Shown here piece after piece: positions 37,354-63,884 of a stretch of DNA of 64,000 nt. The stretch's first letter is position 1. Each line of letters starts with the position of its first letter. This DNA comes from Akkermansia sp. GTDB lineage: Bacteria; Verrucomicrobiota; Verrucomicrobiia; Verrucomicrobiales; Akkermansiaceae. The stretch covers positions 1 to 64,000 of the forward strand of contig JAFQEF010000070.1 of assembly GCA_017399165.1 (NCBI GenBank). Reading direction: 5' to 3'. The translations under genes and the position numbers were made by a program. A model generated the notes under the pieces. It searched no databases and was not told where the DNA came from. It was given only the letters and a program-made list of their open reading frames with translations.

Positions 37354-37362
37354 CAAGAGCTT

Positions 37363-39549: not shown

Positions 39550-39552
39550 ATT

Positions 39553-41751: not shown

Positions 41752-42431
41752 TGATGACTCTTGCAGATATCTTGGATATTGCCTCAGAGCTTGCCATCTA
41801 TGGCGGATGGTTCCTTATTCTCCTTGTGGGTGGTATTTTGTATTGGTGGTGGAAAAATAAGAGGGTAATCACCCCCATGAAACGCGCTATCGATTCTGAA
41901 AATACCGCCGCGTTTGAGGCCTTGGTACACAAACATTACAAGGCCCTTTGCCATGAGGATAACCTTACATTTGTCATGGTGTTTGACTACTTGGTGGAGC
42001 GTAATTGCCTGCCGTGCATGCGTGTGTTGTTCTCTTGCGATACTGCTTCGGCGTGGCAACAGGTGTATCTGAAACAAGACTCGGTAACGGAAGGCCCGCT
42101 GTGGGAAACCATTAACTTTGGTTCCCTTGAAATGTTGCGCCTGTTGCTGGAGCAGGGGATGCAAGCGGAATCGGAGCGCACATCGCCATGGCTTTGGGCT
42201 GTTTCTTGCGGCTTGGTAGAGCATGCTCGCCTCTTGGATGCGTTCGGAGCAAATACCATCACCCCCGAGCAACAGAGCAAAGAAAAAACGCTCGATGAAG
42301 AGTTGCTGGATGAAGCCGCTTGGGAGAATGATCATCAGCACTACATTGAAACGATAGATTATCTTACCGAGCGCCGCTACCCCGTGCCGGATGCAGCAAA
42401 ACGCATAGCTGAGCAATGGCGTACCCCATGA
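41748..42431 (+). CDS. Membrane-anchored ankyrin-like protein A
   Basis: 227 residues. One membrane helix near the N-terminus (GGWFLILLVGGILYWWW, about 19-35), then a soluble helical part. ETINFGSLEMLRLLLEQGM and SPWLWAVSCGLVEHARLLDAFGAN have ankyrin-repeat spacing. The protein is paralogous to the next one: SPWL, EHARLLxxxG and EQQSK recur at the same places. Coupled to M3 copy 3 by an ATGA overlap, which suggests work with the peptidases at the membrane. Function unknown. Confidence 0.65.
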   Translation: MMMTLADILDIASELAIYGGWFLILLVGGILYWWWKNKRVITPMKRAIDSENTAAFEALVHKHYKALCHEDNLTFVMVFDYLVERNCLPCMRVLFSCDTASAWQQVYLKQDSVTEGPLWETINFGSLEMLRLLLEQGMQAESERTSPWLWAVSCGLVEHARLLDAFGANTITPEQQSKEKTLDEELLDEAAWENDHQHYIETIDYLTERRYPVPDAAKRIAEQWRTP

Positions 42432-43135
42432 AAAACGATTTGCTGATTCTTGCCGCCAAATTGGTGGTTGCGGGGCTTATGGTGAGCGCGTGCCTGTTGT
42501 GTGGGTGGCGATACGTGTTATATGGTGCGTTGTTGATTGCTGCCCTTTTGGTGGTGTTGTGGTTATTGTTGCTCTCAAGGCAATGCTATTGGCGTGTGCG
42601 GCATGATTTGACCTATGTCAGACCGTCGATGCGTTTTCATGAAGCCGTGCAGCAAGGGGATACCACCACATTTGAAAAATTATTGCTGCGCTACATGCTG
42701 CTTTGGCGCAGTGGACAACACCTGGCCTTGTGTGAAAAAGTGTTCTGCGATGTGGTGCAGGCAGATGCTATGCCTTTGATGCATATTTTGTTGCAGCAAG
42801 CAGATGCCGCATGGTGGCAATCCTGCCATGCGGATTCCCTCTGCCACGTCATCCTCCACGGCTCACCTCAAATGCTTCGGTTCCTTATAGAGCAGGGCAT
42901 GTGTACGGAGGCGGAGTGGGAATCCCCCTGGCTGATAGCCCTCATCAATTCCCGCTTGGAGCACGCTCGTGTTCTGGCAACCATGGGGTGTGCCAATATC
43001 TCAGCCGAGCAACAGTCCCGTTCTGCTTGGCCTCCTTTGCCCCAAATCCTTAATGATGCTTCCTTTTGGGCTTCTCCGGCACAACATCGAGCTGTGGCAG
43101 AATTTTTAGAAACAACTGTTAAGGTTTCTGATTGA
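42428..43135 (+). CDS. Membrane-anchored ankyrin-like protein B
   Basis: 235 residues from the ATG at 42428, which overlaps the previous stop (ATGA); a start four codons upstream is less likely. Two hydrophobic stretches (LAAKLVVAGLMVSACLLCGW and YGALLIAALLVVLWLLLL) form one hairpin anchor. The soluble part repeats the pattern of protein A: ILHGSPQMLRFLIEQGM, SPWLIALINSRLEHARVLATMG, EQQSR. Duplicate of protein A. Function unknown. Confidence 0.65.
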   Translation: MKNDLLILAAKLVVAGLMVSACLLCGWRYVLYGALLIAALLVVLWLLLLSRQCYWRVRHDLTYVRPSMRFHEAVQQGDTTTFEKLLLRYMLLWRSGQHLALCEKVFCDVVQADAMPLMHILLQQADAAWWQSCHADSLCHVILHGSPQMLRFLIEQGMCTEAEWESPWLIALINSRLEHARVLATMGCANISAEQQSRSAWPPLPQILNDASFWASPAQHRAVAEFLETTVKVSD

Positions 43136-43450: not shown

Positions 43451-46006
43451 ATGCATCACAATTTATTCATCGCAACGCTAATGGCAGCACTTTGTGTTCA
43501 GGCAGGTGCTGTGGAGTATCCGGGGGTGGCCCCGGGTAAGGCTGATGTTAAGGTAGAAAGCGCAAGCAATACCTATACTATTGGCAATGAGCTGGTGAGC
43601 GCAACTTTTAGCCAACAGGGGCAGGGGGTTGTATTCGGCGGGTTTTGCACGGCGGATGGCGTGCAGCTGCTGGAGGGTGGCAAACCTGTGTTCTCTATCA
43701 AATTGGGGGACGGCAGGGAGCTGAACTCCACCAATATGCAGGCCACAAAACTGACCGTGGAGCAACTGCAGCCCGAGCCGAGCTCTCTGACTGTTTCCAA
43801 GCAACAGGCAGGCAAGGCAATATCTGCTGTGTTCACTGCCCCCAATGCTCAATTCTCTGTGCAATGGCGTGCGGTGCTGCGTGATGGTTCTCACTATATT
43901 CGCCAAGAGGTAACCCTCAACGCCGGCAAGGAGCCTGTGCCTTTTGCCACTATCACCCCTCTCTCCGTCAAGCCCACGGCAGCAGGTGGTATTCCTTCCA
44001 TATCCGGCAATACTACACACGGTACGCTTGTTATTACGGATAAATTGTTTATGGGGTTGGAGACCCCCATGTCCGTGATGACGGTGGGGCAGCATGGCTC
44101 CGACAGCAAGGATGCCTGGAATGCCGAGGGCTGGACCCCGGAGATGTTCGGCAACGTGTTTGCCGTGCCGAGCAGCTTTGCGGAGGTGTACGGCAACAAG
44201 TTTGATGCCAAGGTTGGCCCGACCGTGCGAGATTTGCTGGCAGCTGAGGGACCCGTTAAGTTTACCGAGCCCGGTGAGTGTGTTATCGACTTCAAGTACG
44301 AGAGCGGTAACAATCGGCTCAATATTGTTGCGGTGCAGTTAGTGACAACGAATGGACAAGTGGTGTCAGAGGATGTTCACCCCGGGTACACGGGCAATCG
44401 CTCCGTTGCGTCGGAGTACCGTTTGCTGGTGCCTGTGGCCGGTACATACCACCTGCGCTATTGGATTGAGAAAAAGACCGAGCCCGTAACGAGCAACGGC
44501 CGCATTGCTTTGTCTCTGCCCACGGCTTATGCAGAGGAAAATGCTGCCGAAGCCATACCGGAGGATCTTGTGCGTGGTACTTGGGTGAGAAAAACCAACC
44601 TTAACCCGGACACGCCGTGGCAGGTGAACTCTGTGATTGGCTTGTTTGCCCCCGGCCAGCAGCGCCGCTCCCTCTTGGCCTACTTGGAGAGAGAGCGCCC
44701 CGTACCATACCGCACCATGGTACACTATAACGACTGGTATGAGATTGGCATTACTCGCCACGACTACAGCGACCCGATGAAGCGCACTACGGAGAAGATT
44801 TCTCTGGATGTTATCAACACCTGGAAGCGTGAGCTGTTTGAAAAGCGTGGCGTTAAGATTGATGCCTACATGATTGACGACGGCTGGGATGACTTTAACA
44901 GCTTGTGGGATTTCCATATCGGTTTCCCCAATGGCTTTGCAGAGATTAACAAGGTTGCTACCTCTATGGATTGTGGCATGGGCACGTGGTTGGGCCCTGT
45001 GGGTGGCTATGGCCGCTCCAAGTCTCTGCGTATTGCCTATTGGAATGCCACGCACCCCAAGAACCAAATCTCTAACTTTGAACTGTCCAACCCCATCTAT
45101 TTCAACGCCTTTGTGGGGCGCTGCAAAGACATGGTGAAGAACTACGACATGCGCTACTTCAAGTTCGATGGCATTTCTACCAAGTTCCATGCCAAAGGAC
45201 CGGGTGCCTTGGAGGACGCCGAGGGGATTCTGCGCGTGCTGGCAGAGCTGCGCAAGGCTCGCCCCGACATTTACCTGAACACCACGGTAGGCACTTGGGC
45301 AAGCCCGTTCTGGTTCATGCATGCAGACTCCATTTGGCGCCAGGAGAACGACTTCGACCAAATCGGCAACATGGGCGATGCCCGCGACAGATGGATGACC
45401 TACCGCGACCGTTTGGTGCATGAGGTATTTGTGCAGGGCTCCCCGCTCATGCCCATTAACGCCATCATGACGCACGGTACTATTCTTACCCACAATGGTC
45501 CGCCCCGTGTCATGAGCAAGGACCCCGCCAACTGCGTGAAGGAGATGCGTGCCTCGTTCACCAGCGGCTCCGGCCTGCAGGAGGTTTACGCAGATGCCGT
45601 TATTTTGGCCCAGAACAATGGTCAACTGTGGGATGAACTGGCCCAATGCATTGCCTGGATCCGCCGCAATGCGGATGTGCTGGCTGATACTCACTGGGTG
45701 GGTGGTAACCCTTGGGATAAGCAGAAAAAGGACGGCGATATTTATGGCTGGGCCTCTTGGAACATGAATAAGTGCACCTTGTCTCTGCGCAATTCCTCTA
45801 AGCACGTGAAGACGCTTAAGTGCACCTTGCGTGAGATTCTGGATGTTCCGCCCACGGTTAAGGGTACGGTGGTGCTCCGCAGCTCCTTTGCGGACCAGAC
45901 ACGACTCCCCATCATGGATACGCCCATTGATGTTGACCAACCCCTCGAGATTACCATCAAACCGTTTGATGTAGTCGCAATGGAGGGTGTTTGCGACATG
46001 CAATAA
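43451..46006 (+). CDS. Exported glycosidase, clan GH-D-like (GH36-related)
   Basis: 851 residues with a signal peptide (LFIATLMAALCVQAGA). A beta-rich N-terminal half is followed by a TIM-barrel: VKIDAYMIDDGWDDFNSLWDF (about 470-490) is the typical DDGW of GH36/GH27/GH31-like enzymes. MRYFKFDGIS holds the likely nucleophile aspartate, and HADSIWRQENDFDQIG sits where the acid/base region is expected. C-terminal residues form a beta sandwich (LRNSSKHVKTLKC). In databases such proteins are often mislabelled enterotoxin. Substrate unknown; an alpha-galactoside or host glycan is likely. The MFS transporter follows in the same direction. Confidence 0.65.
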   Translation: MHHNLFIATLMAALCVQAGAVEYPGVAPGKADVKVESASNTYTIGNELVSATFSQQGQGVVFGGFCTADGVQLLEGGKPVFSIKLGDGRELNSTNMQATKLTVEQLQPEPSSLTVSKQQAGKAISAVFTAPNAQFSVQWRAVLRDGSHYIRQEVTLNAGKEPVPFATITPLSVKPTAAGGIPSISGNTTHGTLVITDKLFMGLETPMSVMTVGQHGSDSKDAWNAEGWTPEMFGNVFAVPSSFAEVYGNKFDAKVGPTVRDLLAAEGPVKFTEPGECVIDFKYESGNNRLNIVAVQLVTTNGQVVSEDVHPGYTGNRSVASEYRLLVPVAGTYHLRYWIEKKTEPVTSNGRIALSLPTAYAEENAAEAIPEDLVRGTWVRKTNLNPDTPWQVNSVIGLFAPGQQRRSLLAYLERERPVPYRTMVHYNDWYEIGITRHDYSDPMKRTTEKISLDVINTWKRELFEKRGVKIDAYMIDDGWDDFNSLWDFHIGFPNGFAEINKVATSMDCGMGTWLGPVGGYGRSKSLRIAYWNATHPKNQISNFELSNPIYFNAFVGRCKDMVKNYDMRYFKFDGISTKFHAKGPGALEDAEGILRVLAELRKARPDIYLNTTVGTWASPFWFMHADSIWRQENDFDQIGNMGDARDRWMTYRDRLVHEVFVQGSPLMPINAIMTHGTILTHNGPPRVMSKDPANCVKEMRASFTSGSGLQEVYADAVILAQNNGQLWDELAQCIAWIRRNADVLADTHWVGGNPWDKQKKDGDIYGWASWNMNKCTLSLRNSSKHVKTLKCTLREILDVPPTVKGTVVLRSSFADQTRLPIMDTPIDVDQPLEITIKPFDVVAMEGVCDMQ

Positions 46007-47418: not shown

Positions 47419-48972
47419 TTATTTTTGTAATCTTTCTGGGCGGGGGGCACAGCCGAGCTGTTGGAGCAGCATCACGCTCTCCCAATCCATCAAACTCAGA
47501 TGCCCTTGGCGAAGCATGCGCTCTAAGCGAGTGTAGCCATCGTTATCGCAGGCATTCAAATCTGCCCCGGCCTCCGCCAGCAGACGGATGATGGGGGCAC
47601 AGGAACGCTGCTGCGGTATCCGGAGGTCATGCACATACGGCAGTGCCAGCAACGGGGTGAGCCCCTGCGCATCACGGGCGTTCACATCTGCCCCGGCTTC
47701 AATGAGCAGCCTCGCCTTGATGTCTTTTTGTGGGCAGAAAGCGTTGATATAGAAAAGAGCGGTTCGCCCCTGCGCGTCTCGTGCATTCACATTCACCCCG
47801 GCGCGGAGCCATTTGTGTACCTCTATGGCGGGTTTGTGCGGGTCTGCCACGGCCAGCATCAGCTGTGTGCGCCCGGCGGCATCCACCACTTGTGCTTTTT
47901 GTTGCAGCTCTGCAAGCAGGGCCTGCGGATTCTCCAGAATATGCTGAATGCCAAGCCCGAGCTTCTTTTCGCGTGCCAGCATATAGGCGGTTTTGCCGTC
48001 CTCGTTCTTGCGGGTGGCATCCAGCCCCAATTCGATGAAATGGCGGGCCTGCTGCATATCATGATAGTCCCCCTCTCCCTTTGTTACCAGATTACAGAAG
48101 TAGGGTGTGTACCAGTTTTCATCATTCAGCACTGCACCGTGGCAGATGAGCAGATTGACGGTGTCTACCTTAGCCCGAGAACGATGCAGCAGCAGATGCT
48201 CCGTCCACTGGCCGATAGTTGCCTCATCGATATCTCGCACCCGGAACCCGTGCTGCAACAGCAGCGGCACCAGTTCAGCAGAGTGGTCGCTGAGCACCGC
48301 ACGTGTCATCATCGAGCCTCCCCCCAGGTTCGGATCAGCCCCGGCTTGCAGCAGCAGGGCTGTAATGATAACTTCGTTCTTTTTCGGCCCATCGGTGATA
48401 ATCCCCATGCATTGAGATAAAGCACAGGCTCTGTTGAAATTCGGGTCTGCCCCGGACTTTAAGAGTCGCTCCACCTCTGCCACATTGCCTACCGCCGCAG
48501 CGGCTGTCAGGCGGGCTCCTGCGCTTATCGGAACGCCGGCTTGTTCAAATTCTTTTTTCAGAAACTCGTAGGGGTAATACAGGCAGCAATTCAGCTCTGC
48601 GGCATTCAAGCCATCCTTATTGCGAGCATGCAGGTTAATTCCGGCATCGCGAAGGAAATCGAAAAGTTCTTTTGTAATTTCATATTCGCTATGACCATCT
48701 ACGGATTTGATAGCCAGCATCAGAGCATTATTGCCTGCTGCATCCGCCGCATTTACATTAGCCCCTCGGCGTAGCAGTTCACGCATGGCTGAATCATCAT
48801 GTCGGTATGATTGAATGCTCTTGACCGCAGCCTCGAGAAAAGCCGCATCTAATGGTGCCACCGGTGCTACCGGCGCTGCGTTATTCCCCGCTTGCTGCTC
48901 CGCTGCGGTTACGAGAGCCCCTACGGATGTCAGCGCTGCATGCACAAAATATACTAAAGTTCTCAGCTTCAT
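47419..48972 (-). CDS. Exported ankyrin-repeat protein
   Basis: 517 residues with a signal peptide (about residues 1-24). Ankyrin units are clear: LRRGANVNAADAAGNNALMLAI, FLRDAGINLHARNKDGLNAAEL, LLKSGADPNFNRACALSQC, LRAGVNVNARDAQGRTALFYI, LIEAGADVNARDAQGLTPLLAL, LAEAGADLNACDNDGYTRLERML. The N-terminal linker is rich in Ala and Pro. Probably periplasmic; partner unknown. It is convergent with the MFS gene, with the two stops about 100 bases apart. Confidence 0.85.
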   Translation of the reverse strand: MKLRTLVYFVHAALTSVGALVTAAEQQAGNNAAPVAPVAPLDAAFLEAAVKSIQSYRHDDSAMRELLRRGANVNAADAAGNNALMLAIKSVDGHSEYEITKELFDFLRDAGINLHARNKDGLNAAELNCCLYYPYEFLKKEFEQAGVPISAGARLTAAAAVGNVAEVERLLKSGADPNFNRACALSQCMGIITDGPKKNEVIITALLLQAGADPNLGGGSMMTRAVLSDHSAELVPLLLQHGFRVRDIDEATIGQWTEHLLLHRSRAKVDTVNLLICHGAVLNDENWYTPYFCNLVTKGEGDYHDMQQARHFIELGLDATRKNEDGKTAYMLAREKKLGLGIQHILENPQALLAELQQKAQVVDAAGRTQLMLAVADPHKPAIEVHKWLRAGVNVNARDAQGRTALFYINAFCPQKDIKARLLIEAGADVNARDAQGLTPLLALPYVHDLRIPQQRSCAPIIRLLAEAGADLNACDNDGYTRLERMLRQGHLSLMDWESVMLLQQLGCAPRPERLQK

Positions 48973-50386: not shown

Positions 50387-53300
50387 ATGAACAGAACCAT
50401 AACGACAACGCTGATGGTGATGGCCGGGACGGCAATGTATGCCTATGCCCAGGCACCCGTGCCTGCAGAGGAAGCACAGCCCGTGGCCGCAACGGCCGAG
50501 GCAGGTGCGCCGGTGCAGGAGTTGCAGCTGCAACAAGACCCTCAATTAATTGTGGGTAAGCTGCATAACGGTTTAACCTACATGATACGCCCCACGAAGG
50601 AGCCGGCAGGCCGCGCCAGTGTGCGCCTGTTTGTGCAAACGGGCTCTTTGGATGAGAATGAGGAGACGAGCGGTATCTCTCACTTTTTGGAGCACATGGT
50701 GTTTAACGGCAGCCGCAGTTTTGAGCGCGGTGAGCTGATACCGGCCATGCAGCGCTTGGGGCTTGGTTTTGGTGGAGATGCGAATGCCTACACCTCTTTG
50801 CAACATACGGTGTACATGTTGGACTTGCCCAACCAGAACCCGGAGACGGTGAATTTTGCCTTCACCATTATGCGCGATTTTGCGGATGGTGCCAAGTTGG
50901 AGGACTCTGCCATTGACCACGAGCGCGGCATTATTGTGAGCGAGCTCAAGAGCCGGGACTCCGAGAGCTACCGTGCCATGATTGCCACGATAGACCAGCT
51001 TGCAGAGGGCACGCGCATTGCCAAGTATATGCCCATTGGTAAGGAGGAGGTGATTAAGCACGCCCCCTACGAGCTGTTCCGTGACTATTACAAGAAACAC
51101 TATGTGCCGGAGCGCATGACGCTTATCGTAACGGGTGATTTTGAGCCGGCCACGGCGGAGAAGTGGATTCGCAACCACTTTGTAAGCATGCCCAAGGCAG
51201 AGAACCCGGAGCACCCCGCACTGGGTACCATTACCAACACCGGCCGCACGGTGCGTGTGTTGCCCGTTAAGGAGCAAGCCACGGTCAATATCTCTGCCGC
51301 CACGGTGAAACAGTACCAAGAAGAGCCGGACTCTTTGGAGAAGCGCATTAAGGACATGCCGTTGCAAATTGCCTGCGCCATGCTCAACAGCCGCTTGAGC
51401 CGCATTGCCCAGCAGGCGGACTCCCCGTTCAACGGCGCCTCTGTGGGCAGCGAGGTGATTTTTAACACGGCAGATGCCTTCAGCCTGAGTGTTTCTGCCG
51501 CCCCCGATAAATGGCAGGGTGCTTTGAGCCGTGCAGAGCAAGAGCTGCGCAAGGCTATTCAATATGGTTTCGAGGCTCATGAGTTTACGGAGATCCTCTC
51601 CGGCATTGCCTCAGACCTCACCCACTCCATCGAAACCTGGGAGAGCGTGCCGGCAGATGCCATGGCCTCTCACTTAATCAATGCCGTGGGCGATAAGCTG
51701 GTGCACACCTCCCCGCAGGAGGATATGCGCGTCTTCCAAATGGCTGTTCAGTTGATTTTGCAGAACCCGGACTGCTGCCGCGCCGCCCTGGAGCAAGCCT
51801 ACAATGCCGCCAACAGCAAGCTGACCGCCACCGGCACCATACCCGCAGATTTGACGGAGGAGAGCCTTGCCGCCGTGTTTGACACCGCCAACAAGGTAGC
51901 GGTGGAGAAACCCGAGCTGCGCGCAGCCAAGCCCTTTGCCTACGACAACATCGGCGAGCCGGGCAAGATTGTGAAGAAGGACCACATTGCGGATATTGAT
52001 GTGACCACCCTCACGCTCTCTAACGGCATTAAGGTGAACCTTAAACGCACAGACTACCGCAAAGGCGCACTCACGGTGAGTGCACAGGTGGATGGCGGCA
52101 ACCTCAAAATGCCGGTGGTTCCCGGCTTGAACACGGTTGCTGGCTCCGTTGTTGGGCTGAGTGCTCTTGAGGCGCACGATTTGGACGAGCTCAAGCGCAT
52201 TATGCTGGGGCACAATGTGGACCTCAACTTCGGCGTGAGCGACACGCGCATGAGCTACTCCGGCGGCACCACAGAGGAGGACTTGGAGCTGCAATGCAAG
52301 CTGATTGTGGCAGGTATTATGCACCCCGCCTACCGCCAAGAGGCCATTGCCATGATTCACCGCCGCCTGCCGGCCATGTACCGGCAGCTTACCACCACGC
52401 CCCAAGGGGCTTTCACACTCAACAGCGCCAAGGCTATGTATGGGGATGACCCCCGCTTCAACGTGCCTGCACGCGAGCAGGTGGAGGCTATCACCGTAGA
52501 GCAGGTTAAGGCCGCTATGGACCCCTTCTTCCAAAAAGGAGCTGTAGAGGTAACCTTGGTGGGCGACTTCGACATTGACAAGGCTCTGCCCATCATTGAG
52601 CGCACCTTTGGTGCCATGCCTGCCCGTAACCCCGAGTTTACCGAGCTGACCCCCGAGCAGCGCACCATCAACTTCCGCCCCTGGGGGCAGGAGGCATTCT
52701 TCCGCTACCACACCAATTTGGACAAAACCCTGGTGGTGCAGGTGCGCCCCGCCGGCAATGGTAAGGATGTTAAGCACAGCCGCCGCCTGCGTGTGTTGGC
52801 CTCCATTGCCCGTGCCAAGCTGTTCGACGGCATACGCGCCAAGATGGGCGAAACCTACTCACCCTCCGTATCCGTCAGCAACGCGCCGGACTTCGATAAC
52901 GCTGCCACCATTACCGCCGCAAGTGCCGGTGTTAAGCGCAACCGCAAGCTGGTGAATGATGCCATGATGGAGATTCTGGACAGCGTGGGCCGTGGCGAGT
53001 TCACGGAGGACGACTTCCAGTGCGCTATTCGCCCCATCATCGCCTCCTCTGAGAAAGCCCTGCGCCAAAACTCCTTCTGGTGCGGTGCTTTGGCAGACCT
53101 GCAGAGCGACCCCGAAAAGCTGGAGAACATCCGCAACGTGGTAGACGACTTCAAGTCCATCACCTTTGAGGAGATTCAGCAACTGGCCAAGGATGTGTTC
53201 GGCAACAAGAATGTAAACTGCTACTACACCGTGCCGGAGGACTACACCCCGGCAGATGAAGAGCAGCCTGCAGAGGCCGCCCCTGCCACAGAGGCTCAGC

Positions 53301-54754
53301 CCCCCATTGCCAAAGTTGCCCCCACGGTAGAGGATTATACCGTTGTAACCACCGCCACCACAGCAAAAGATGCCGAGTGGGCCGCCGTGGCAGATGCCCT
53401 GGTAGCCAAGTACCCCGGTGCAGAGAAGGTGGTGATACCCGCCCTTACCGAGCAAGACCTCACCGAGGCGCTGCGCAGCACCGGTGCCCGCTATGCTGCC
53501 ATTGTAGTTAAGCCCGAGGAGGTTGGCCGAGACACCATCAACCACATGCACCGCGCTGCCCGTAAGGTGGATTCAGACCTTTGGGGTGACTGCATTTGGG
53601 GCATTGTCACCGGTTACTCTGCCGCAGATGCCATGCGCATTGCTAAAGAAACCAAGCCCCTTGTCATCAAACGCTTGCTTGGCACCACCAATGTAGGCTG
53701 GCACCACTTTAACTACAGCTACTGTATTACGGACTGGACCAACAGCCCCATTTTGGAGCAAGACGGCGGCGTTGAACCCACCAGCACCACCTACGATAAA
53801 TCTACAGAAAAAGGCCGCCAACTGCTGGAGGACGGTTTCCAGAGCCTCTTTGCAGAGCGTTTGGAAAACGCCCGTTCCCAAATGGTTGTTACCTCCAGCC
53901 ACGCCACGCAGTTTAACCTGGAGATGCCCTTCTCCCGCGGGCTTATCTTCCCGTATGAGAACCGCTTCTACCAGCTCAAAAAGCGTCAAATGGGCTATTT
54001 CTTCCGCCCGCTCACCAAAGCCCGTCAAGGCAATTCCTCTTTGATCGGTAAATTGGTAGAGCAGCTCAATACCCCGGCTATCGAGCCCGATGGCAACACC
54101 CGCATTTGGTTGGCCGCCGGCAACTGCCTCTTTGGAGATGCCTGCCACACCAAAAACAGCATGGCCGTCACCGCCTTGTCCGCCTATACCTGCAACCAGG
54201 TAGTGGGCTACACCGTACCCTCTTGGTATGGGGCAGGGGGCTGGGGTACCCTCAGCTGCTTCTTCGATGCCGCCAACGGCACACCGTTCTCTCATGCCTG
54301 GTTTATCAACAACCAGTTCATGCTGCACAACACGCAGCAAATAGACCCCAAACTGCTCAATATTCAATTTAACGGTGAGCAGGTGGACCTCAAGCTGCAG
54401 AACGATGTGTTCCGCTCCGGCGCTGCCCTCAACCAGCAAAACGCCAAAGATGCCCTGGGCTACGTGCATGATCGAGATGTCGTCGCCTTCTATGGCGACC
54501 CCGCCTGGTCCGCCTCCCTCGACTGCTCCCAGTCCCCGTGCCCCGTGTGCATTGAGTGGCAAAACGACAAGCAGTTCACCATCACCGCCAATATGGACCA
54601 TAAGGGCCGCCTCGGCGTCTGGTTCCCCACTGCCGCCACCGGAGATGGTGCCACAGAGTGCAACGTAGAGGGTGCCGTGCTGACGGATGACTTCATCCTC
54701 ATCCCCGAGATTAAGCTTAAAAAAGGTGAAAAGCAAACGGTAATCATCAAATAA
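50387..54754 (+). CDS. Exported M16 metallopeptidase with fused C25-like cysteine peptidase domain
   Basis: 1455 residues from the ATG at 50387, followed by a signal peptide (TTLMVMAGTAMYAYAQ). Residues 50-960 are a two-repeat M16 (pitrilysin/PqqL) peptidase: the zinc site is HFLEH (H99, E102, H103) with a distal glutamate in ERGIIVSELKS, and a second, degenerate M16 unit runs from about 530 (LSNGIKVNLKRTDYRKG). The usual length is about 930. After an Ala/Pro/Glu linker (about 960-980) come 475 extra residues. There VVTSSHATQFNLEMPFSRG (H1172) and LAAGNCLFGDACHT (C1247) have the His-then-Cys spacing of clan CD peptidases of the gingipain (C25) kind. The C-terminal 100 residues are beta-rich. 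Strong terminator follows. The C25 assignment is by pattern and less certain. Confidence 0.85.
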   Translation: MNRTITTTLMVMAGTAMYAYAQAPVPAEEAQPVAATAEAGAPVQELQLQQDPQLIVGKLHNGLTYMIRPTKEPAGRASVRLFVQTGSLDENEETSGISHFLEHMVFNGSRSFERGELIPAMQRLGLGFGGDANAYTSLQHTVYMLDLPNQNPETVNFAFTIMRDFADGAKLEDSAIDHERGIIVSELKSRDSESYRAMIATIDQLAEGTRIAKYMPIGKEEVIKHAPYELFRDYYKKHYVPERMTLIVTGDFEPATAEKWIRNHFVSMPKAENPEHPALGTITNTGRTVRVLPVKEQATVNISAATVKQYQEEPDSLEKRIKDMPLQIACAMLNSRLSRIAQQADSPFNGASVGSEVIFNTADAFSLSVSAAPDKWQGALSRAEQELRKAIQYGFEAHEFTEILSGIASDLTHSIETWESVPADAMASHLINAVGDKLVHTSPQEDMRVFQMAVQLILQNPDCCRAALEQAYNAANSKLTATGTIPADLTEESLAAVFDTANKVAVEKPELRAAKPFAYDNIGEPGKIVKKDHIADIDVTTLTLSNGIKVNLKRTDYRKGALTVSAQVDGGNLKMPVVPGLNTVAGSVVGLSALEAHDLDELKRIMLGHNVDLNFGVSDTRMSYSGGTTEEDLELQCKLIVAGIMHPAYRQEAIAMIHRRLPAMYRQLTTTPQGAFTLNSAKAMYGDDPRFNVPAREQVEAITVEQVKAAMDPFFQKGAVEVTLVGDFDIDKALPIIERTFGAMPARNPEFTELTPEQRTINFRPWGQEAFFRYHTNLDKTLVVQVRPAGNGKDVKHSRRLRVLASIARAKLFDGIRAKMGETYSPSVSVSNAPDFDNAATITAASAGVKRNRKLVNDAMMEILDSVGRGEFTEDDFQCAIRPIIASSEKALRQNSFWCGALADLQSDPEKLENIRNVVDDFKSITFEEIQQLAKDVFGNKNVNCYYTVPEDYTPADEEQPAEAAPATEAQPPIAKVAPTVEDYTVVTTATTAKDAEWAAVADALVAKYPGAEKVVIPALTEQDLTEALRSTGARYAAIVVKPEEVGRDTINHMHRAARKVDSDLWGDCIWGIVTGYSAADAMRIAKETKPLVIKRLLGTTNVGWHHFNYSYCITDWTNSPILEQDGGVEPTSTTYDKSTEKGRQLLEDGFQSLFAERLENARSQMVVTSSHATQFNLEMPFSRGLIFPYENRFYQLKKRQMGYFFRPLTKARQGNSSLIGKLVEQLNTPAIEPDGNTRIWLAAGNCLFGDACHTKNSMAVTALSAYTCNQVVGYTVPSWYGAGGWGTLSCFFDAANGTPFSHAWFINNQFMLHNTQQIDPKLLNIQFNGEQVDLKLQNDVFRSGAALNQQNAKDALGYVHDRDVVAFYGDPAWSASLDCSQSPCPVCIEWQNDKQFTITANMDHKGRLGVWFPTAATGDGATECNVEGAVLTDDFILIPEIKLKKGEKQTVIIK

Positions 54755-57148: not shown

Positions 57149-58021
57149 TCAAGATGACTCTTTCTCTTTGAATGTAGCCTTGCCATTTTCTATTACTCCT
57201 TTGATAATCTTGATTTTATCGGGAATATAGGAATCGCGTGCTCCTTCATTCATTCGCTTACGTCTCTCGTTAATGATGAACTCAACCTCGTCCGGTTCGA
57301 TTCGACAACGAGGTCCCAATGTTATTTTACTAATAAAACGCGTTATTTCGTTGGAAAAGAACATAGGAGGCAGACCTATAGAAAAGCGACTAAATCGCTC
57401 TTTCCTGATGACTATTCTATATTCGTTTTCATATTCCCAATCAGTATGCTTTCTACTAACTAACTTCCATATCGACTGATGAAAGTTCAGATTATCGTTA
57501 GCATCATAAGCGACCTGATTGACGCATAAATCATCATTGTAGAAGCATTTAATTAAAAAATCTCCTCCTCTGTTGTCTATTTTATCATACCCGTCATCAT
57601 AATTACCATAGCAAATGCAATAGGCATTGTAATTTTGTTGACGTAGAGGAGCGCAAATTTCGAAGTCTATTTTCTCACCCAGATTTTTTGGCTCTGCTCC
57701 TTCTTTTACAGAAAAATAGGGAATTTGTAATTCTATACAAGCGCCTGAGTACTTGTCGGCATAATTACCCCACAAAGCTTCATGATTAGCGTGTTTTGAT
57801 AAAGATATGAATCCGAAATCTCTATACTCGCCAACACTTCCATCTTTATACTTGAACTTCAATTCTGATAAATCATTAGCATCAGAGGCTCTCGTTAGTT
57901 TAAAATCTCCGTGTTCTAGCAGTCCAATAAGAGCAGTTGGTGTAATATATTTATACAGGGTTAAGGTTTTTTCTTTCTCTGCATATCGCAATTCTTTAAT
58001 GAGCGGTTTGTCGAATATCAT
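57149..58021 (-). CDS. DUF2971 protein
   Basis: 290 residues. LYKYITPTALIGLLEHGDFKL, RASDANDLSE, GFISLSKHANHEALWGNYAD and SGACIELQIPYF match DUF2971, and WEYENEYRIVIRKE is its late signature. Molecular function unknown; the family often appears in mobile or defence regions. AGGAGA lies 12 bases before the ATG. It follows the YgjP-like gene by 40 bases in the same direction, so it may belong to the restriction operon. Confidence 0.8.
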   Translation of the reverse strand: MIFDKPLIKELRYAEKEKTLTLYKYITPTALIGLLEHGDFKLTRASDANDLSELKFKYKDGSVGEYRDFGFISLSKHANHEALWGNYADKYSGACIELQIPYFSVKEGAEPKNLGEKIDFEICAPLRQQNYNAYCICYGNYDDGYDKIDNRGGDFLIKCFYNDDLCVNQVAYDANDNLNFHQSIWKLVSRKHTDWEYENEYRIVIRKERFSRFSIGLPPMFFSNEITRFISKITLGPRCRIEPDEVEFIINERRKRMNEGARDSYIPDKIKIIKGVIENGKATFKEKESS

Positions 58022-58061
58022 CGCTTGTTTTATCTCCTATAGTTAAACGTAATTGCTACGG

Positions 58062-58781
58062 TTAATCCTCCCAATTTTCCTCGTAGCTTAAAGGCTCTGC
58101 ATTGAGTGAAGAACGGATATGCCGCCAGTTGGGGCAATGCTGTTTTAGCAGATTGATGAACGTCTCGTTGTGGTCGGTTTCTATCAGGTGGCAAAGCTCG
58201 TGAATCAGCACATACTCCAGCCCGGCTGGATTCTTCATGGCCAAATCGGTGTTGATTTGGATATTTGTTGACTCCTTGTTGCAGGTACCCCAACGGGTAC
58301 GCATCTTGCGTATCAGATACGTTGGAACAGGGACTCCAATCTTGGCGGTCAAGACAGGTAATTTTCGCTCTAACTCACCTTTTAGGTAGTCACGATACCA
58401 TTCCTGTTGCAGATTCTCCCGGGCGTCTCGGGTTGTTGATGCATACACATACATCTCCATGTATTTACCCTTAAGCTCGATTCGGTGAGGTTGTCCGGTG
58501 GGTATCTCTATTACCTTCAATAAGTATCTCTTGCCTTTGAAGTAATGGCTTTCCCCGCTCACAAAGCTGCGTTTGGTCAAACGTAACTGAGAGAGCAACT
58601 CTCTTTGCTCCGAACGAATCCATGGCAGGCGATGAATTAACGCCAATCGTATGGCTTCTTCGTCCATGCTCATAGGGGCAGATACCTCTACCTCTGCATC
58701 AGGCGGACACACCGCTATACGCAAGTGCTTAATAGGCTTGCGTATGACCTGAGCAACTATACCGGAAATCTCAATGTGCAT
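58062..58781 (-). CDS. YgjP-like (DUF45) metallopeptidase
   Basis: 239 residues. MRTRWGTCNKEST, INTDLAMKNPAGLEYVLIHELCHLIE and the following HNETFINLLKQHCPNW are the YgjP/DUF45 signature; HELCH (near residue 195) is the zinc-binding HExxH. Such genes are regular neighbours of type I restriction genes, where their role is not known. It overlaps the 3' end of hsdR by 11 bases, so coupling is likely. Confidence 0.85.
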   Translation of the reverse strand: MHIEISGIVAQVIRKPIKHLRIAVCPPDAEVEVSAPMSMDEEAIRLALIHRLPWIRSEQRELLSQLRLTKRSFVSGESHYFKGKRYLLKVIEIPTGQPHRIELKGKYMEMYVYASTTRDARENLQQEWYRDYLKGELERKLPVLTAKIGVPVPTYLIRKMRTRWGTCNKESTNIQINTDLAMKNPAGLEYVLIHELCHLIETDHNETFINLLKQHCPNWRHIRSSLNAEPLSYEENWED

Positions 58782-61700
58782 GGCTCTTAGCCAGATTGAA
58801 TATCATCTCAACCATATCATCAGCCTGAGCAACTTCCAGCGCTTCTAATGAGCGGCGAAGCGCCTTCCTTAGCTTTCGTTCCTTCATGGTGTTAGTCTCG
58901 AATCCAGGCTGGGCGTTGTTGGTGATGCAAGAATCCATTATCTCAGCAAAACGCTCACGTTCAGATACATCCATTGACTCCGGAGCGTTATCAAAAAGAG
59001 CTTTTTGGCGAGCTGTAGACAGTTTTGGCGAATACCCCGGTTGACGAGTGCCGCCGGACACTACCTCCTTTGCCAGCTTCTCTATTTTCTGTAAGAACTC
59101 CTTGTAGCTGATAGCCTCCTCCTTCAGTTGCTTAACAATTTCATCAAGCAGTTTTGACAGCTTGTCATAGAACTTAGGATTCTTACAGCTTTTCTCTGTG
59201 ATATCCCGCTTGATGTTGTTGCTGATGGTATCTGCTGCATTCTTCTCGCCGACCTTTTTCTTTACCTGCTCTCCGGTTTCCTCAGCGTTGGCTGCAATCA
59301 ATTCGGAAAGAGTCTTGCCGTTCAGCGTAGTCAAGACCGTGCTAGGCTCAGCTTTTACAAAAGCATCCACCAGCTGACGCATTTTTGCCTCAACCGTTTT
59401 CATGTCTACATAGTCACCGCTACACAGTTTTACCTCGTCACGCATATCAACATAATGATGAACCTTAGCAGATATTGCGTCCATCTGTTTTTGCGTATAT
59501 CCGGCTTCTACTGCTTCATACTTAATCTGTGCAAAGGCTCTCACCAGCGAAGCGGTGAACGTGTATAGCGCATGGCGTTGCTGCGCATGCTTATCCAGAT
59601 TAGCCCCTATACAGAAGTAGTTCAGATAATCATCGCGTTTTTTGGGCTCCATTACAGGCTCGCAAAGCGCATCCAGTTGTTCCAGGCATTGGTCGAGCCG
59701 TTTCTTAGCTTCTAGCAGGCGGTCTTTCAATAAACCCTCAATGTCTTCCTTATCGTAGCCGTCAAAGGCATCGGAAGTGAAGTCACGGTAGGCGTCCTCT
59801 AATCTAGGGAATAGCTCCTGATAATCTACAATATACCCGTATTCCTTGCTGTCGCCATCCAGTCGATTCACTCGACAGATGGCTTGGAACAAGCCATGGT
59901 CTCGCATCTTTTTATCGATGTACAGGTACGTTGCCGGAGGCGCATCAAAACCGGTCAGTAGCTTATCTACCACTATAAGTAGTCTCATACGCCCCGGTTC
60001 CTCGATAAACATCTTTTTGATTTTGGTCTCAAACTCGGACACCACATCCGTCTTATCCGGGTCGAAATCAAATTCTTTCAGCATCCGGCGGCTTACCTCA
60101 TACTTGTAGTAGTCTTCGTTTGCTACAGCTTGCGAACCTGCTGTGCGGATAGCACTCTTATCCGGAACAAAGGAGGAAATCACAGCACACTTGCCATGTA
60201 ACTCAACTCGTTTACTGAAAATATCATAGAAGCGGAACGCCTCATAAATGCTACCTGCTACCAAGATGGCTGTACCTTGAGACGTACATAAACGTGGCTT
60301 CGTAGTAAAATCCAGACAAATGTCCGTAGCGATGTTCTCCAAACGCTCCTTGGAGGAGAATACGGCGGAAACGGTACCCCACTTCTGCTTTACTTGGCGC
60401 TTGGCCTCATCCGTCATGTCTAAGGTGATACGCTCAAACCACATATCGAGACGGTCTTGTCCCACCACTCGGTTTTCGATATTGCGCGCCTCATAGCGTA
60501 AGTCCAGAACCACGCCATCGCGCACAGCCTCATCGAACTTATAGGTGTGGATGTATGTGCCGAATACCTGCTGTGAAGTAGCTTTATCCTTTTTCATCAA
60601 GGGCGTTCCGGTAAAACCTATGTACATTTGAGTACCGCCCAGCACAGCATCCATCGCTTTCTTCATCCTTCCGGATTCGCTGCGGTGGCATTCGTCAACA
60701 AATACAAACAGCTCTCCCTTAACAGAGAAGTTTTCTATCTTGTAATTGCTCAGCTGGCGAATAAAATCGTCGTAATTGTCCTTGTCTCTGAACTTGTGCA
60801 GAAGAGAGCAGATAATCGAGGGACATGTCTCATCAGGCGATTGCTTTTGCTTTTCCGGCTTGCTGTTATTGAGCTTGTGCAGTAATTGTTCGGCATTTTT
60901 AGCCCGGAATGGTTTGTAATTCGTGTTGGCGAAGTTTTTTTCTATCTGCTCATCCAACTCTACGCGGTCAGTAACAATCAGCACGCGGGCTTGCGGATTG
61001 TTTTCTAATATCCACTTGGCTAGCCATACCATCAGCAGACTCTTACCACTACCCTGCGTATGCCAAATGATGCCACCCTCGCGTTCTCTCACTCTTTTTT
61101 GGGCTGCTTTAATGCCGTGGTACTGGTTCTGTCTCGCCACCTTCTTGATGCCAGCATCAAAGATTGTGAAGTTATGGATGAAATCCAACAACATCTCTTT
61201 GTTACACATGGCTTCCAAGTGCTCAAATAGATGTAGTCTGCTTTCGTCCATCGGGTCACGCTTCCACTCCAGATAGTATTTCTCCGGGGTATTTGTGGTG
61301 CCATACCGAAGGCCTTGGGATTCGTTGCCCGCCATCACCAGCTGGATCGTACTGAAGAAATGAGGTATCTCATCCCTATTCTGGTACGTCAGATTCTGGC
61401 GAATACCTTGCGAAACGCTTACAGCAGCTTTTTTGAGCTCCAATACGCCCAAAGCGATGCCATTCACATACAACACGACATCCGGGCGGCGCATGCCTGT
61501 TTCCGTGCTCCTCATGGACACCTCCTCAGCAATACCGAAATCATTATTCAAAGGATTGTCCCAGTCGATGTAATGAACAGTTTCGTAGTTCTCTCCTATA
61601 CCCGGGCTTACCTTTGCTCCATAGTACAGTCTTTCGTAGACAGCCTTGTTGCTCTCGTACAAATCGCTGGAGCTATTACGTACCCGGTTAAGCTCGGTGA

Positions 61701-61914
61701 TTGCGGCAGAAGCCGTTTGTGGCGAGTGTCCTTGTTTTTGGATTAGCCAGTTGCTAAGAATATCCTCTTCAATGGGAGATGTCCGGGCTAATTCAGCCTC
61801 AGTAACTTCCCACTTGCCAAGATATTCATACCCTAGCTGGTCTTTGAAAAGATCGATAACCTTATCCTGGGTACAGCGTTCTGCCTCACCTATCTGAGAT
61901 TCCAAAGTGCTCAT
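58771..61914 (-). CDS. hsdR: Type I restriction enzyme, R subunit
   Basis: 1047 residues from the ATG at 61914, which overlaps the stop of the upstream gene (ATGA); a longer reading to 62079 is just overlap. ATP-driven translocase and nuclease of a type I system. The nuclease is near residues 140-165 (RRPDVVLYVNG then VLELKK, the PD-ExK elements). Helicase motifs: IIWHTQGSGKSLLMVW (Walker A), VFVDECHRSESGRM (motif II as DECH), GFTGTPL (motif III), and LIVVDKLLTGFDAPPATYLYIDK and AICRVNR (V-VI). The C-terminal helical region binds the methylase core. Length is normal. A partial S subunit gene is upstream; hsdM must lie beyond the window. Confidence 0.95.
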   Translation of the reverse strand: MSTLESQIGEAERCTQDKVIDLFKDQLGYEYLGKWEVTEAELARTSPIEEDILSNWLIQKQGHSPQTASAAITELNRVRNSSSDLYESNKAVYERLYYGAKVSPGIGENYETVHYIDWDNPLNNDFGIAEEVSMRSTETGMRRPDVVLYVNGIALGVLELKKAAVSVSQGIRQNLTYQNRDEIPHFFSTIQLVMAGNESQGLRYGTTNTPEKYYLEWKRDPMDESRLHLFEHLEAMCNKEMLLDFIHNFTIFDAGIKKVARQNQYHGIKAAQKRVREREGGIIWHTQGSGKSLLMVWLAKWILENNPQARVLIVTDRVELDEQIEKNFANTNYKPFRAKNAEQLLHKLNNSKPEKQKQSPDETCPSIICSLLHKFRDKDNYDDFIRQLSNYKIENFSVKGELFVFVDECHRSESGRMKKAMDAVLGGTQMYIGFTGTPLMKKDKATSQQVFGTYIHTYKFDEAVRDGVVLDLRYEARNIENRVVGQDRLDMWFERITLDMTDEAKRQVKQKWGTVSAVFSSKERLENIATDICLDFTTKPRLCTSQGTAILVAGSIYEAFRFYDIFSKRVELHGKCAVISSFVPDKSAIRTAGSQAVANEDYYKYEVSRRMLKEFDFDPDKTDVVSEFETKIKKMFIEEPGRMRLLIVVDKLLTGFDAPPATYLYIDKKMRDHGLFQAICRVNRLDGDSKEYGYIVDYQELFPRLEDAYRDFTSDAFDGYDKEDIEGLLKDRLLEAKKRLDQCLEQLDALCEPVMEPKKRDDYLNYFCIGANLDKHAQQRHALYTFTASLVRAFAQIKYEAVEAGYTQKQMDAISAKVHHYVDMRDEVKLCSGDYVDMKTVEAKMRQLVDAFVKAEPSTVLTTLNGKTLSELIAANAEETGEQVKKKVGEKNAADTISNNIKRDITEKSCKNPKFYDKLSKLLDEIVKQLKEEAISYKEFLQKIEKLAKEVVSGGTRQPGYSPKLSTARQKALFDNAPESMDVSERERFAEIMDSCITNNAQPGFETNTMKERKLRKALRRSLEALEVAQADDMVEMIFNLAKSHAH

Positions 61915-63884
61915 AATTTCTCTTCGGTTTGGTATGCCTGTTGCGGATGATTTGTTTGTTTTTCCTTGGCTTTTAGTACATGATGCAGAACCATCGAGCG
62001 CAGTATACGCAGTAGGGTTCTCTTTTCTCTGCCCAAGATGCTTGCCATCTCTACGCTTGTTACCCAACGATTTCGGCATAAATCACAGATTGCGGTTTCC
62101 ATTTCCTCCTGGCTTACCTTTTTGGATGCCTTCACTTTTAGTACAGATTCCGGCAGCTGTGACATTAGGTGTGACATTTGCGTGGATTTTTCCTCGAGCT
62201 GTGACATTTGATTGAAAAGAGGTAAATCTTCCTCATTCCTTTTATTATTAATAGCTCCAATAGTTGAGGAATTGTTCGCAACTTCTCTGGTGAGGTGTGA
62301 CATTTGCTGTGACATTTGCTCGGTATTTCCATGGAACTGTGACATTTGTCTTGCATTTGCCTCACTCCAGCAATATTTCATGCCTCGAGTGCGTCCTTTG
62401 GTCTTCAGATAGCCGCGTTCCACAAAGCGGGACAAATATCGGCTTAAATCAGCAGGATGCATCGGCAACATGTTTTGAATATCACCATGAGAGATGAAAC
62501 TGTCGAAGGGTACGCAGACCAGCACCAGCTTTTCAAACGATGAGAGTTGTGAAAAATCCTGTGCGCCAATGCGATGAATAATAGCATCCAGATTCTTGCG
62601 TGGAATCATTCCAACAGAGGGCAAAAACCATACAACTCTCCATGGATTACCCAGTTCGCTTATTTGCGGGAACGCAAGGCAAGTGTCAAACCACCCCTTG
62701 GTGATTTTCTCTACTCCACTACCGGCTTTATCCCCCATACCCAATGCCTGGAACATGCGTTGCAGGTTCTTGTTGCGGCAAATGCTAATCTGCTCCGAGT
62801 CGGTGAAGAGCGTGTCTTTATTCACTAACATGGTGCCCGGATTTACAAACTTCAACCCCTCCGGGCGCTTGGTAATCCGGATTCCGGCATCCACCCAATA
62901 GTCCGCATGAATGATGGTATTGGCAACCGCTTCGCGCAAAGCAATGTCGGCGAGTGTTTCCCCTTTGCGGGTCATGTCCTTGTTCAACTCAAATGGACGT
63001 TTCAAGCCTAATTGAAGGCGCCCCAGCACCTGGAATGTGAACTCATACAGATTGCCGGCCCATGAACCATCATTCGTTAAGCGATCACTCCACCGGGCAT
63101 TCTCATCCGTGGAGTTCTCGTATTCAAAGTAATCCAATTGGAAGCTGGGCCATAAATCAAGAATGGAGTCATGCTTGCCGAACATGAGTAAACCAGCCAG
63201 TGTTACACCAGTTTCTCCCGTGGCGCGGTCTGTTCGATAGGCTCTTAACTTTCGCAGCAGTCCTTCATCGCTCTCGTGTTGCCACAGAGTTCCCATGGGA
63301 GTATCCCGCATACGATTGCGGAATTTTCTCAGCGTTACAGAGTCAATATCACCCAGCGTACTATGCGGTAGGATATGGTCGTCTTGGGAATAGGTTTGTA
63401 TCAGAAAGACATCCCGATTGCGGCGCATCCGGGCTATCTCAGTCTCGCCACACTGCACATCCGCTTCCTGCTGGCGGATATAGCACAGCTTTTCATCCTT
63501 GCTCAGATGCACCGGCTGGTGCTCTGGACTTGCTACAGGAACTCTGATGGCAAGGATTTCCTTACCCTCTAATTCCATTTTCTCCACACAGCCGGGACGG
63601 GAGCATAAGTTACAGCTTACCTGCTGGCTGTTGTTGAGCAGATCCACCAGTTCCTTATGCCGCTTGTCGATGTTGGGGACACCTTTCACCTCGCCATCAT
63701 CAGTCACACCGAGGATGAGTATACCGCCCACGGTATTCGCAAACGCACTATACGTGCGCCGCAGCTCCTTGTTCGGCAGACCTCCCTCTGCCAGCTTGAA
63801 CTCCAGCTTCAAGCCCTCTTTCCATTCCTTGTGTTCTTTATACAGGCGCTTCACCTCTTGCACCAATGACTCCGTGTCACTCAT
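61911..63884 (-). CDS. AlbA_2 and GHKL-ATPase protein in the type I operon
   Basis: 657 residues. The N-terminal domain (EGLKLEFKLAEGGLPNKELRRTYSAFANT, GGILILGVTDDGEVKG) is AlbA_2 (Schlafen-type, divergent AAA_4). The middle has REAVANTIIHADYW and AGSGVEKI, the HATPase_c_4 nucleotide-binding pattern. Then comes a winged-helix-like part, and a linker (about 510-575) with a duplicated block QMSQ-x6-QMSxxMSxL. The C-terminus is another helix-turn-helix-like unit. AAGGAG lies 10 bases before the ATG. It sits between hsdS and hsdR and is coupled to hsdR. Role in such operons not established; regulation or RNA-cleaving activity have been suggested for AlbA_2 relatives. Confidence 0.85.
   Translation of the reverse strand: MSDTESLVQEVKRLYKEHKEWKEGLKLEFKLAEGGLPNKELRRTYSAFANTVGGILILGVTDDGEVKGVPNIDKRHKELVDLLNNSQQVSCNLCSRPGCVEKMELEGKEILAIRVPVASPEHQPVHLSKDEKLCYIRQQEADVQCGETEIARMRRNRDVFLIQTYSQDDHILPHSTLGDIDSVTLRKFRNRMRDTPMGTLWQHESDEGLLRKLRAYRTDRATGETGVTLAGLLMFGKHDSILDLWPSFQLDYFEYENSTDENARWSDRLTNDGSWAGNLYEFTFQVLGRLQLGLKRPFELNKDMTRKGETLADIALREAVANTIIHADYWVDAGIRITKRPEGLKFVNPGTMLVNKDTLFTDSEQISICRNKNLQRMFQALGMGDKAGSGVEKITKGWFDTCLAFPQISELGNPWRVVWFLPSVGMIPRKNLDAIIHRIGAQDFSQLSSFEKLVLVCVPFDSFISHGDIQNMLPMHPADLSRYLSRFVERGYLKTKGRTRGMKYCWSEANARQMSQFHGNTEQMSQQMSHLTREVANNSSTIGAINNKRNEEDLPLFNQMSQLEEKSTQMSHLMSQLPESVLKVKASKKVSQEEMETAICDLCRNRWVTSVEMASILGREKRTLLRILRSMVLHHVLKAKEKQTNHPQQAYQTEEKL
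62158..62347. repeat. Duplicated TGTGACATTT block inside the AlbA_2 gene
   Basis: The word TGTGACATT(T/A) begins at 62158, 62170, 62200, 62296, 62308 and 62338. Spacings are 12 and 30 bases, then the same 12 and 30 again, so the whole block is repeated 138 bases apart. It codes for QMS(Q/H) motifs in the linker. Confidence 0.9.

Follow-up and report, generated by a model that had tools for sequence, protein, structure and literature searches.

The gene at 50387–54754 of the Akkermansia DNA analysed here (the window, 64,000 nucleotides in all) encodes two unrelated protease folds, an M16 metallopeptidase and a gingipain-like domain of clan CD fold, in a genuine fusion that extends across the genus, with activity predicted for both sites. 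The new element in this fusion is the gingipain-like family, which the libraries searched (Pfam, NCBIfam) leave unnamed. We hold the architecture and the clan-CD-fold assignment, taken jointly, with high confidence. The best explanation of the whole, to which we give a probability of roughly 0.55, is a tethered pair of proteases that would first cut a substrate and then digest it.

Layout of the gene and its M16 half

The reading frame (+ strand) begins with an ATG at 50387, stops at 54752–54754 and has a product of 1455 aa. Its parts are listed below with the evidence for each.

50387–54754, + strand: whole gene, exported M16 peptidase fused to a gingipain-like domain, 1455 aa; fused frame conserved across the genus
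50387–50449, + strand: predicted Sec signal peptide, residues 1–21 (MNRTITTTLMVMAGTAMYAYA, cleavage before QA), no lipobox; read from the sequence by eye
50534–51931, + strand: M16 catalytic half, residues 50–515; Pfam PF00675 and PF05193, PDB 9ldy (E = 7e-73) and PqqL 6ofs (E = 8e-53)
50681–50695, + strand: zinc site H99-F-L-E102-H103, third ligand probably E179 (DHERG), 76 residues downstream; from the sequence, with HxxEH in all fused or adjacent M16 proteins examined
51932–53251, + strand: second M16 repeat, non-catalytic, residues 516–955, no HxxEH; a single HxxEH in the whole protein, and the model matches C-terminal M16 halves
53252–53329, + strand: flexible Ala/Pro/Glu linker, residues 956–981; pLDDT 30–36 in the model of residues 516–1455
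53330–54751, + strand: gingipain-like domain of clan CD fold, residues 982–1455, 474 residues; AlphaFold2 pLDDT 93 and pTM 0.93, RgpB Z 23.2, Kgp Z 21.8
53732–53734, + strand: D1116, candidate acid of the S1 pocket; D or E in 38/38, putative equivalent of RgpB Asp163
53900–53902, + strand: H1172, predicted catalytic histidine; conservation and profile alignment
54125–54127, + strand: C1247, predicted catalytic cysteine; conservation and profile alignment
54224–54226, + strand: W1280, candidate S1-lid tryptophan; W in 36/38, putative equivalent of RgpB Trp284
54536–54751, + strand: C-terminal beta-sandwich subdomain, residues 1384–1455, at the position of the gingipain IgSF domain; seen as strands in the model, with matches at Z 5.3 only, so that the assignment is weak

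Six single-contig or other high-quality genomes (G028, G038, G063, G119, G142, G147) and many species carry this fused frame uninterrupted, and we therefore regard the reading frame as genuine.

Both Pfam matches were above cut-off (PF00675, 84.8 bits; PF05193, 121.4 bits) and placed the M16 domains at residues 70–404. The putative PqqL-type M16 peptidase 9ldy of P. gingivalis aligned over residues 48–942, and the modelled fold of the second repeat resembled the C-terminal halves of 9ldy (Z 34.2), PqqL (Z 30.3) and FusC (Z 29.4). The sole HxxEH in the protein lies in the first repeat, with E179 at the expected site. By these comparisons, residues 50 to ~950 are a single-chain, two-repeat M16 peptidase of the PqqL/FusC type with an intact zinc site. 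The initial annotation had called an M16 zinc peptidase about 500 residues longer than two-repeat enzymes, and it was right in both respects: the Pfam matches, the 9ldy/PqqL alignment and the HFLEH...E site bear out the first, and the extra region amounts to ~474 residues (982–1455).

PqqL, FusC and 9ldy are, like this M16 part, single chains of two repeats with one active site and a signal peptide, but the Akkermansia protein bears ~500 more residues with a second peptidase-like domain. Fus/PqqL loci have a TonB-dependent transporter adjoining (PMC6793856), whereas the Akkermansia gene has no conserved neighbour of this kind. When a FusC/PqqL-like import operon was sought around the gene in relatives, no conserved neighbour was found beyond a 207-aa ORF in close relatives; with neither transporter nor partner gene conserved beside it, the neighbourhood points to no substrate.

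Several other genes of the window were recorded. Three M3-family oligopeptidase genes stand in tandem at 35173–41751 (+ strand); a survey of Akkermansia peptidases reports multiple M03A copies in all Akkermansia species (PMC10540074). Three ankyrin-repeat proteins are encoded near this cluster and upstream of the fusion gene (41748–43135 and 47419–48972), and an 851-aa protein at 43451–46006 gave no Pfam match above cut-off. A type I restriction R subunit, a YgjP-like metallopeptidase, a DUF2971 protein and a Schlafen-AlbA_2 protein lie side by side at 57149–63884 (− strand), possibly as a defence island.

The gingipain-like domain

The AlphaFold2 model of residues 982–1455, built on an alignment of 22 sequences, reached a pLDDT of 93 and a pTM of 0.93. 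Kgp alone fell under E 0.001 in Foldseek (at about 1e-6), while VIA-align placed RgpB first (Z 23.2, 277 residues, 3.1 Å) and then Kgp (Z 21.8), the gingipain match spanning ~280 residues of the domain model at an rmsd of 3.1–3.4 Å. Below the gingipains in VIA-align came CHAT/Csx29 and separase (Z 9–14), DdvA and C11 peptidases, nearly all of them members of clan CD. In the model, H191 (domain numbering) follows the strand formed by residues 185–188 and C266 the strand formed by residues 258–262; this placement agrees with the description of RgpB, whose catalytic His and Cys are found where two neighbouring core strands end (PMC4357240). The structure prediction thus returned the caspase-like clan-CD fold expected from the initial annotation, with gingipains as the best match (Z 22–23 over ~280 residues).

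Sequence searches with residues 982–1455 against Pfam, NCBIfam and the PDB gave noise only. The profile search against C25 went against the initial proposal: PF01364, the C25 model, did not match the domain, nor did it match anything else in the protein, its relatives or its own genome. Since PF01364 does not recognise the domain, we describe it as C25-like rather than as a shown C25 member. A profile alignment (hhalign) of 38 diverse members with 29 C25 domains of the same phylum was weak (189 columns, E 0.04, probability ~1%); it pairs SSHAT with the C25 GHG and GNCLxG with the C25 CxxG, so that His and Cys are in register, and also pairs a D-x-DPxxDxxWGIxTG segment with the C25 segment D-xxPDxxxGRxpaxT. 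The modelled fold and the predicted catalytic residues agree by two routes, an agreement that does not imply C25 membership.

Of 79 homologues, 78 retain H1172 and 76 retain C1247. The two residues had been picked out earlier from the motifs SSHATQ and GNCLFGDA, 75 residues apart; these positions are correct, and such conservation shows that the motifs are not chance. In the 38 diverse members, a set from which one Cys-less, catalytically dead Akkermansia clade had been excluded beforehand, both residues are always present (38/38), as is D or E at position 1116 (38/38); W occupies position 1280 in 36 of the 38, and His-Ala, not the clan CD motif His-Gly, was found in 37. The family motif reads [ST][SG]HA[TS]...GNC[LM]x[GA]. 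In the C25-type CxxGDx seen in the initial annotation, the Asp is not a conserved residue (D, N, H, L or Q; D in 17/38). The spacing between His and Cys is 50–53 in most distant members and 65–77 in the Akkermansia-like group, where an insertion makes it wider. D1116 and W1280 are plausible counterparts of RgpB Asp163 and Trp284, and as such would favour a basic P1 residue.

With RgpB and Kgp the domain shares its fold, a CxxG running on from the Cys, a core strand before each of His and Cys, a conserved Trp that follows the Cys where gingipains have the S1 lid, a beta-sandwich at the C-terminus and export. It differs from them in overall sequence (10–11% identity), in having His-Ala instead of His-Gly, in a His–Cys spacing of 50–77 residues and in the segment inserted in Akkermansia. 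Unlike the gingipains, the Akkermansia protein has no gingipain prodomain and no recognised T9SS C-terminal signal, and it is fused to M16.

TIGR03790 was considered as a name for the family and rejected, as its members are encoded at other loci and gave no significant profile match to the domain. They occur in the same genomes as the domain. One TIGR03790 protein of this genome (on contig C126) and nine others weakly resemble C25 in profile comparison (hhalign E 0.004), and this uncharacterised family might, as judged from the profiles, lie near the gingipain fold.

Distribution and history of the fusion

In the family sample, the domain was present in 40 of 41 Akkermansia genomes, and in 35 of the 40 its frame is at least 1337 aa. 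All long frames fetched with enough upstream sequence contain M16 in the same frame. The one genome without the domain has no M16 orthologue either and keeps only a distant M16 paralogue. The other Akkermansiaceae encode the domain as a protein by itself (~450–530 aa), several copies having a recognisable signal peptide; their M16 orthologue is encoded apart from it, at an unlinked locus, in an open frame of 972–1118 aa. Fused proteins occur on both deep branches of the Akkermansia tree, and the split forms, either adjacent separate genes (L054, L143, L041/L142/L059) or unlinked ones (L051, L061/L144), are nested within it. This pattern suggests a fusion ancestral to Akkermansia that has been undone several times since. 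The split copy in L041 bears a signal peptide of its own.

Across the phylum, the domain was found in 58 of 289 sampled Verrucomicrobiota genomes, about a fifth of a sample that is rich in Akkermansia. Elsewhere in Verrucomicrobiota it is joined to transglutaminase-like domains (in both orders), GH127, a weakly matched propeller and EF-hands; four such proteins (L178, L180, L183, L179) carry transglutaminase-like domains or a GH127 enzyme. Fusion to M16 was observed in Akkermansia only among the Verrucomicrobiota genomes sampled. A search of open-licence papers gave no description of the fusion or of a gingipain-like Akkermansia protein.

In one clade, the fused proteins no longer have the cysteine site. 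The seven members fetched (L133–L139) have GPGE, GPGQ, GSGA and similar sequences without the Cys, and three are without the His as well; all retain the fusion and an intact zinc site (HLLEH). The gingipain-like part diverges 1.29 times as much as the M16 part in this clade, compared with a ratio of 1.00 in clades with both sites, from which the two parts appear to be under comparable constraint there. The dead clade keeps the domain at a mean identity of 58%. The ratio of 1.29 reads as modest relaxation, not decay. Because the Cys, and in some members the His, is lost and the domain is nevertheless kept, catalysis by the domain would not always be needed. The initial annotation had pointed to two unrelated protease chemistries in one chain. 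Outside this clade that description fits, both predicted sites being conserved; inside it the cysteine site is dead, so the pair of chemistries has not been retained throughout.

Proposed action, alternatives and significance

A model of residues 516–1455, covering the second M16 repeat, the linker and the gingipain-like domain, contains two well-folded modules. A docked arrangement of these modules was sought in the model and not found (overall pTM 0.54), and together with the low linker pLDDT (30–36) this value predicts no fixed packing. Two genes that some lineages keep apart and others fuse usually work together. The domain and the M16 peptidase, separate elsewhere and fused in Akkermansia, are on that ground likely to be the products of two cooperating genes.

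We propose that the protein would be exported through Sec and would act in the periplasm or at the outer membrane. There the gingipain-like module would serve as a cysteine endopeptidase (H1172/C1247) that nicks folded proteins, perhaps with a preference for a basic P1 residue, and the M16 module, with its PqqL/FusC-type zinc chamber, would then degrade the polypeptides released. The long flexible linker would let the two enzymes work independently yet close together. For the cut-then-digest mechanism taken by itself, we put the chances slightly short of even. More tentatively still, the domain may represent a new clan-CD family across Verrucomicrobiota, a mobile extracellular module carried by unrelated enzymes (M16, transglutaminase-like, GH127), which in Akkermansia would have become part of a tethered protein-degrading machine, one clade later turning single-site with a dead cysteine module.

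The cysteine module could instead be a maturation protease that cuts the linker or the chain and frees the M16 enzyme or itself, in which case the fusion would be a zymogen and the mature form two enzymes. The flexible, exposed linker has a lysine (IAK, followed by VAP) adjoining the domain, gingipains become active when their prodomain is proteolysed (PMC4357240), and some Akkermansia encode the two parts in neighbouring but separate genes (L041/L142, L054, L143). However, dead-Cys clades retain the fusion uncut, and other genera export the domain alone with no M16 nearby; we consider maturation unlikely. A marginally less likely explanation is that the C-terminal module mainly binds or scaffolds, its catalysis being secondary or vestigial in the fusion. 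The clade without Cys, and partly without His, would fit this explanation, as it keeps both domain and fusion while the domain changes faster relative to M16 than in other clades, but in the rest of the family, throughout the phylum and whether fused or free-standing, His, Cys and the residues surrounding them do not vary.

Clan CD also has ligating members, such as PorU (within the C25 group) and legumain, and the module might be a transpeptidase or sortase-like ligase that attaches proteins to a surface anchor and does not degrade them. A role in processing or attachment would fit the fusions seen elsewhere, in which the module is joined to transglutaminase-like, GH127 and other domains, but here its partner is a degradative M16 enzyme, and we consider ligation improbable. 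An assembly or annotation error as the source of the fusion, or a chance resemblance of the His and Cys motifs, is hardly credible: a few draft assemblies (L032, L038, L048) do have frameshifts near the M16/domain junction, but the frame is continuous in high-quality genomes and many species, and model confidence and Z scores are very high.

Akkermansia lives on mucin and host proteins. The peptidase Amuc_0576, of which A. muciniphila cells grown on mucin had more in their outer-membrane fraction (PMC4960237), was considered as a putative A. muciniphila orthologue of the fusion protein solely from chromosomal position, the gene of G038 standing at ~701 kb of a 2.65-Mb chromosome, roughly the proportion expected. 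The available text of the Akkermansia peptidase survey, a MEROPS comparison, names no C25-type or M16 enzyme (PMC10540074), and the module may therefore have been missed. The clade with the dead cysteine site is a natural experiment that separates the two predicted activities. As a predicted fused metallo/cysteine protease found nearly throughout the genus, the protein is a candidate for host-protein degradation or envelope maintenance.
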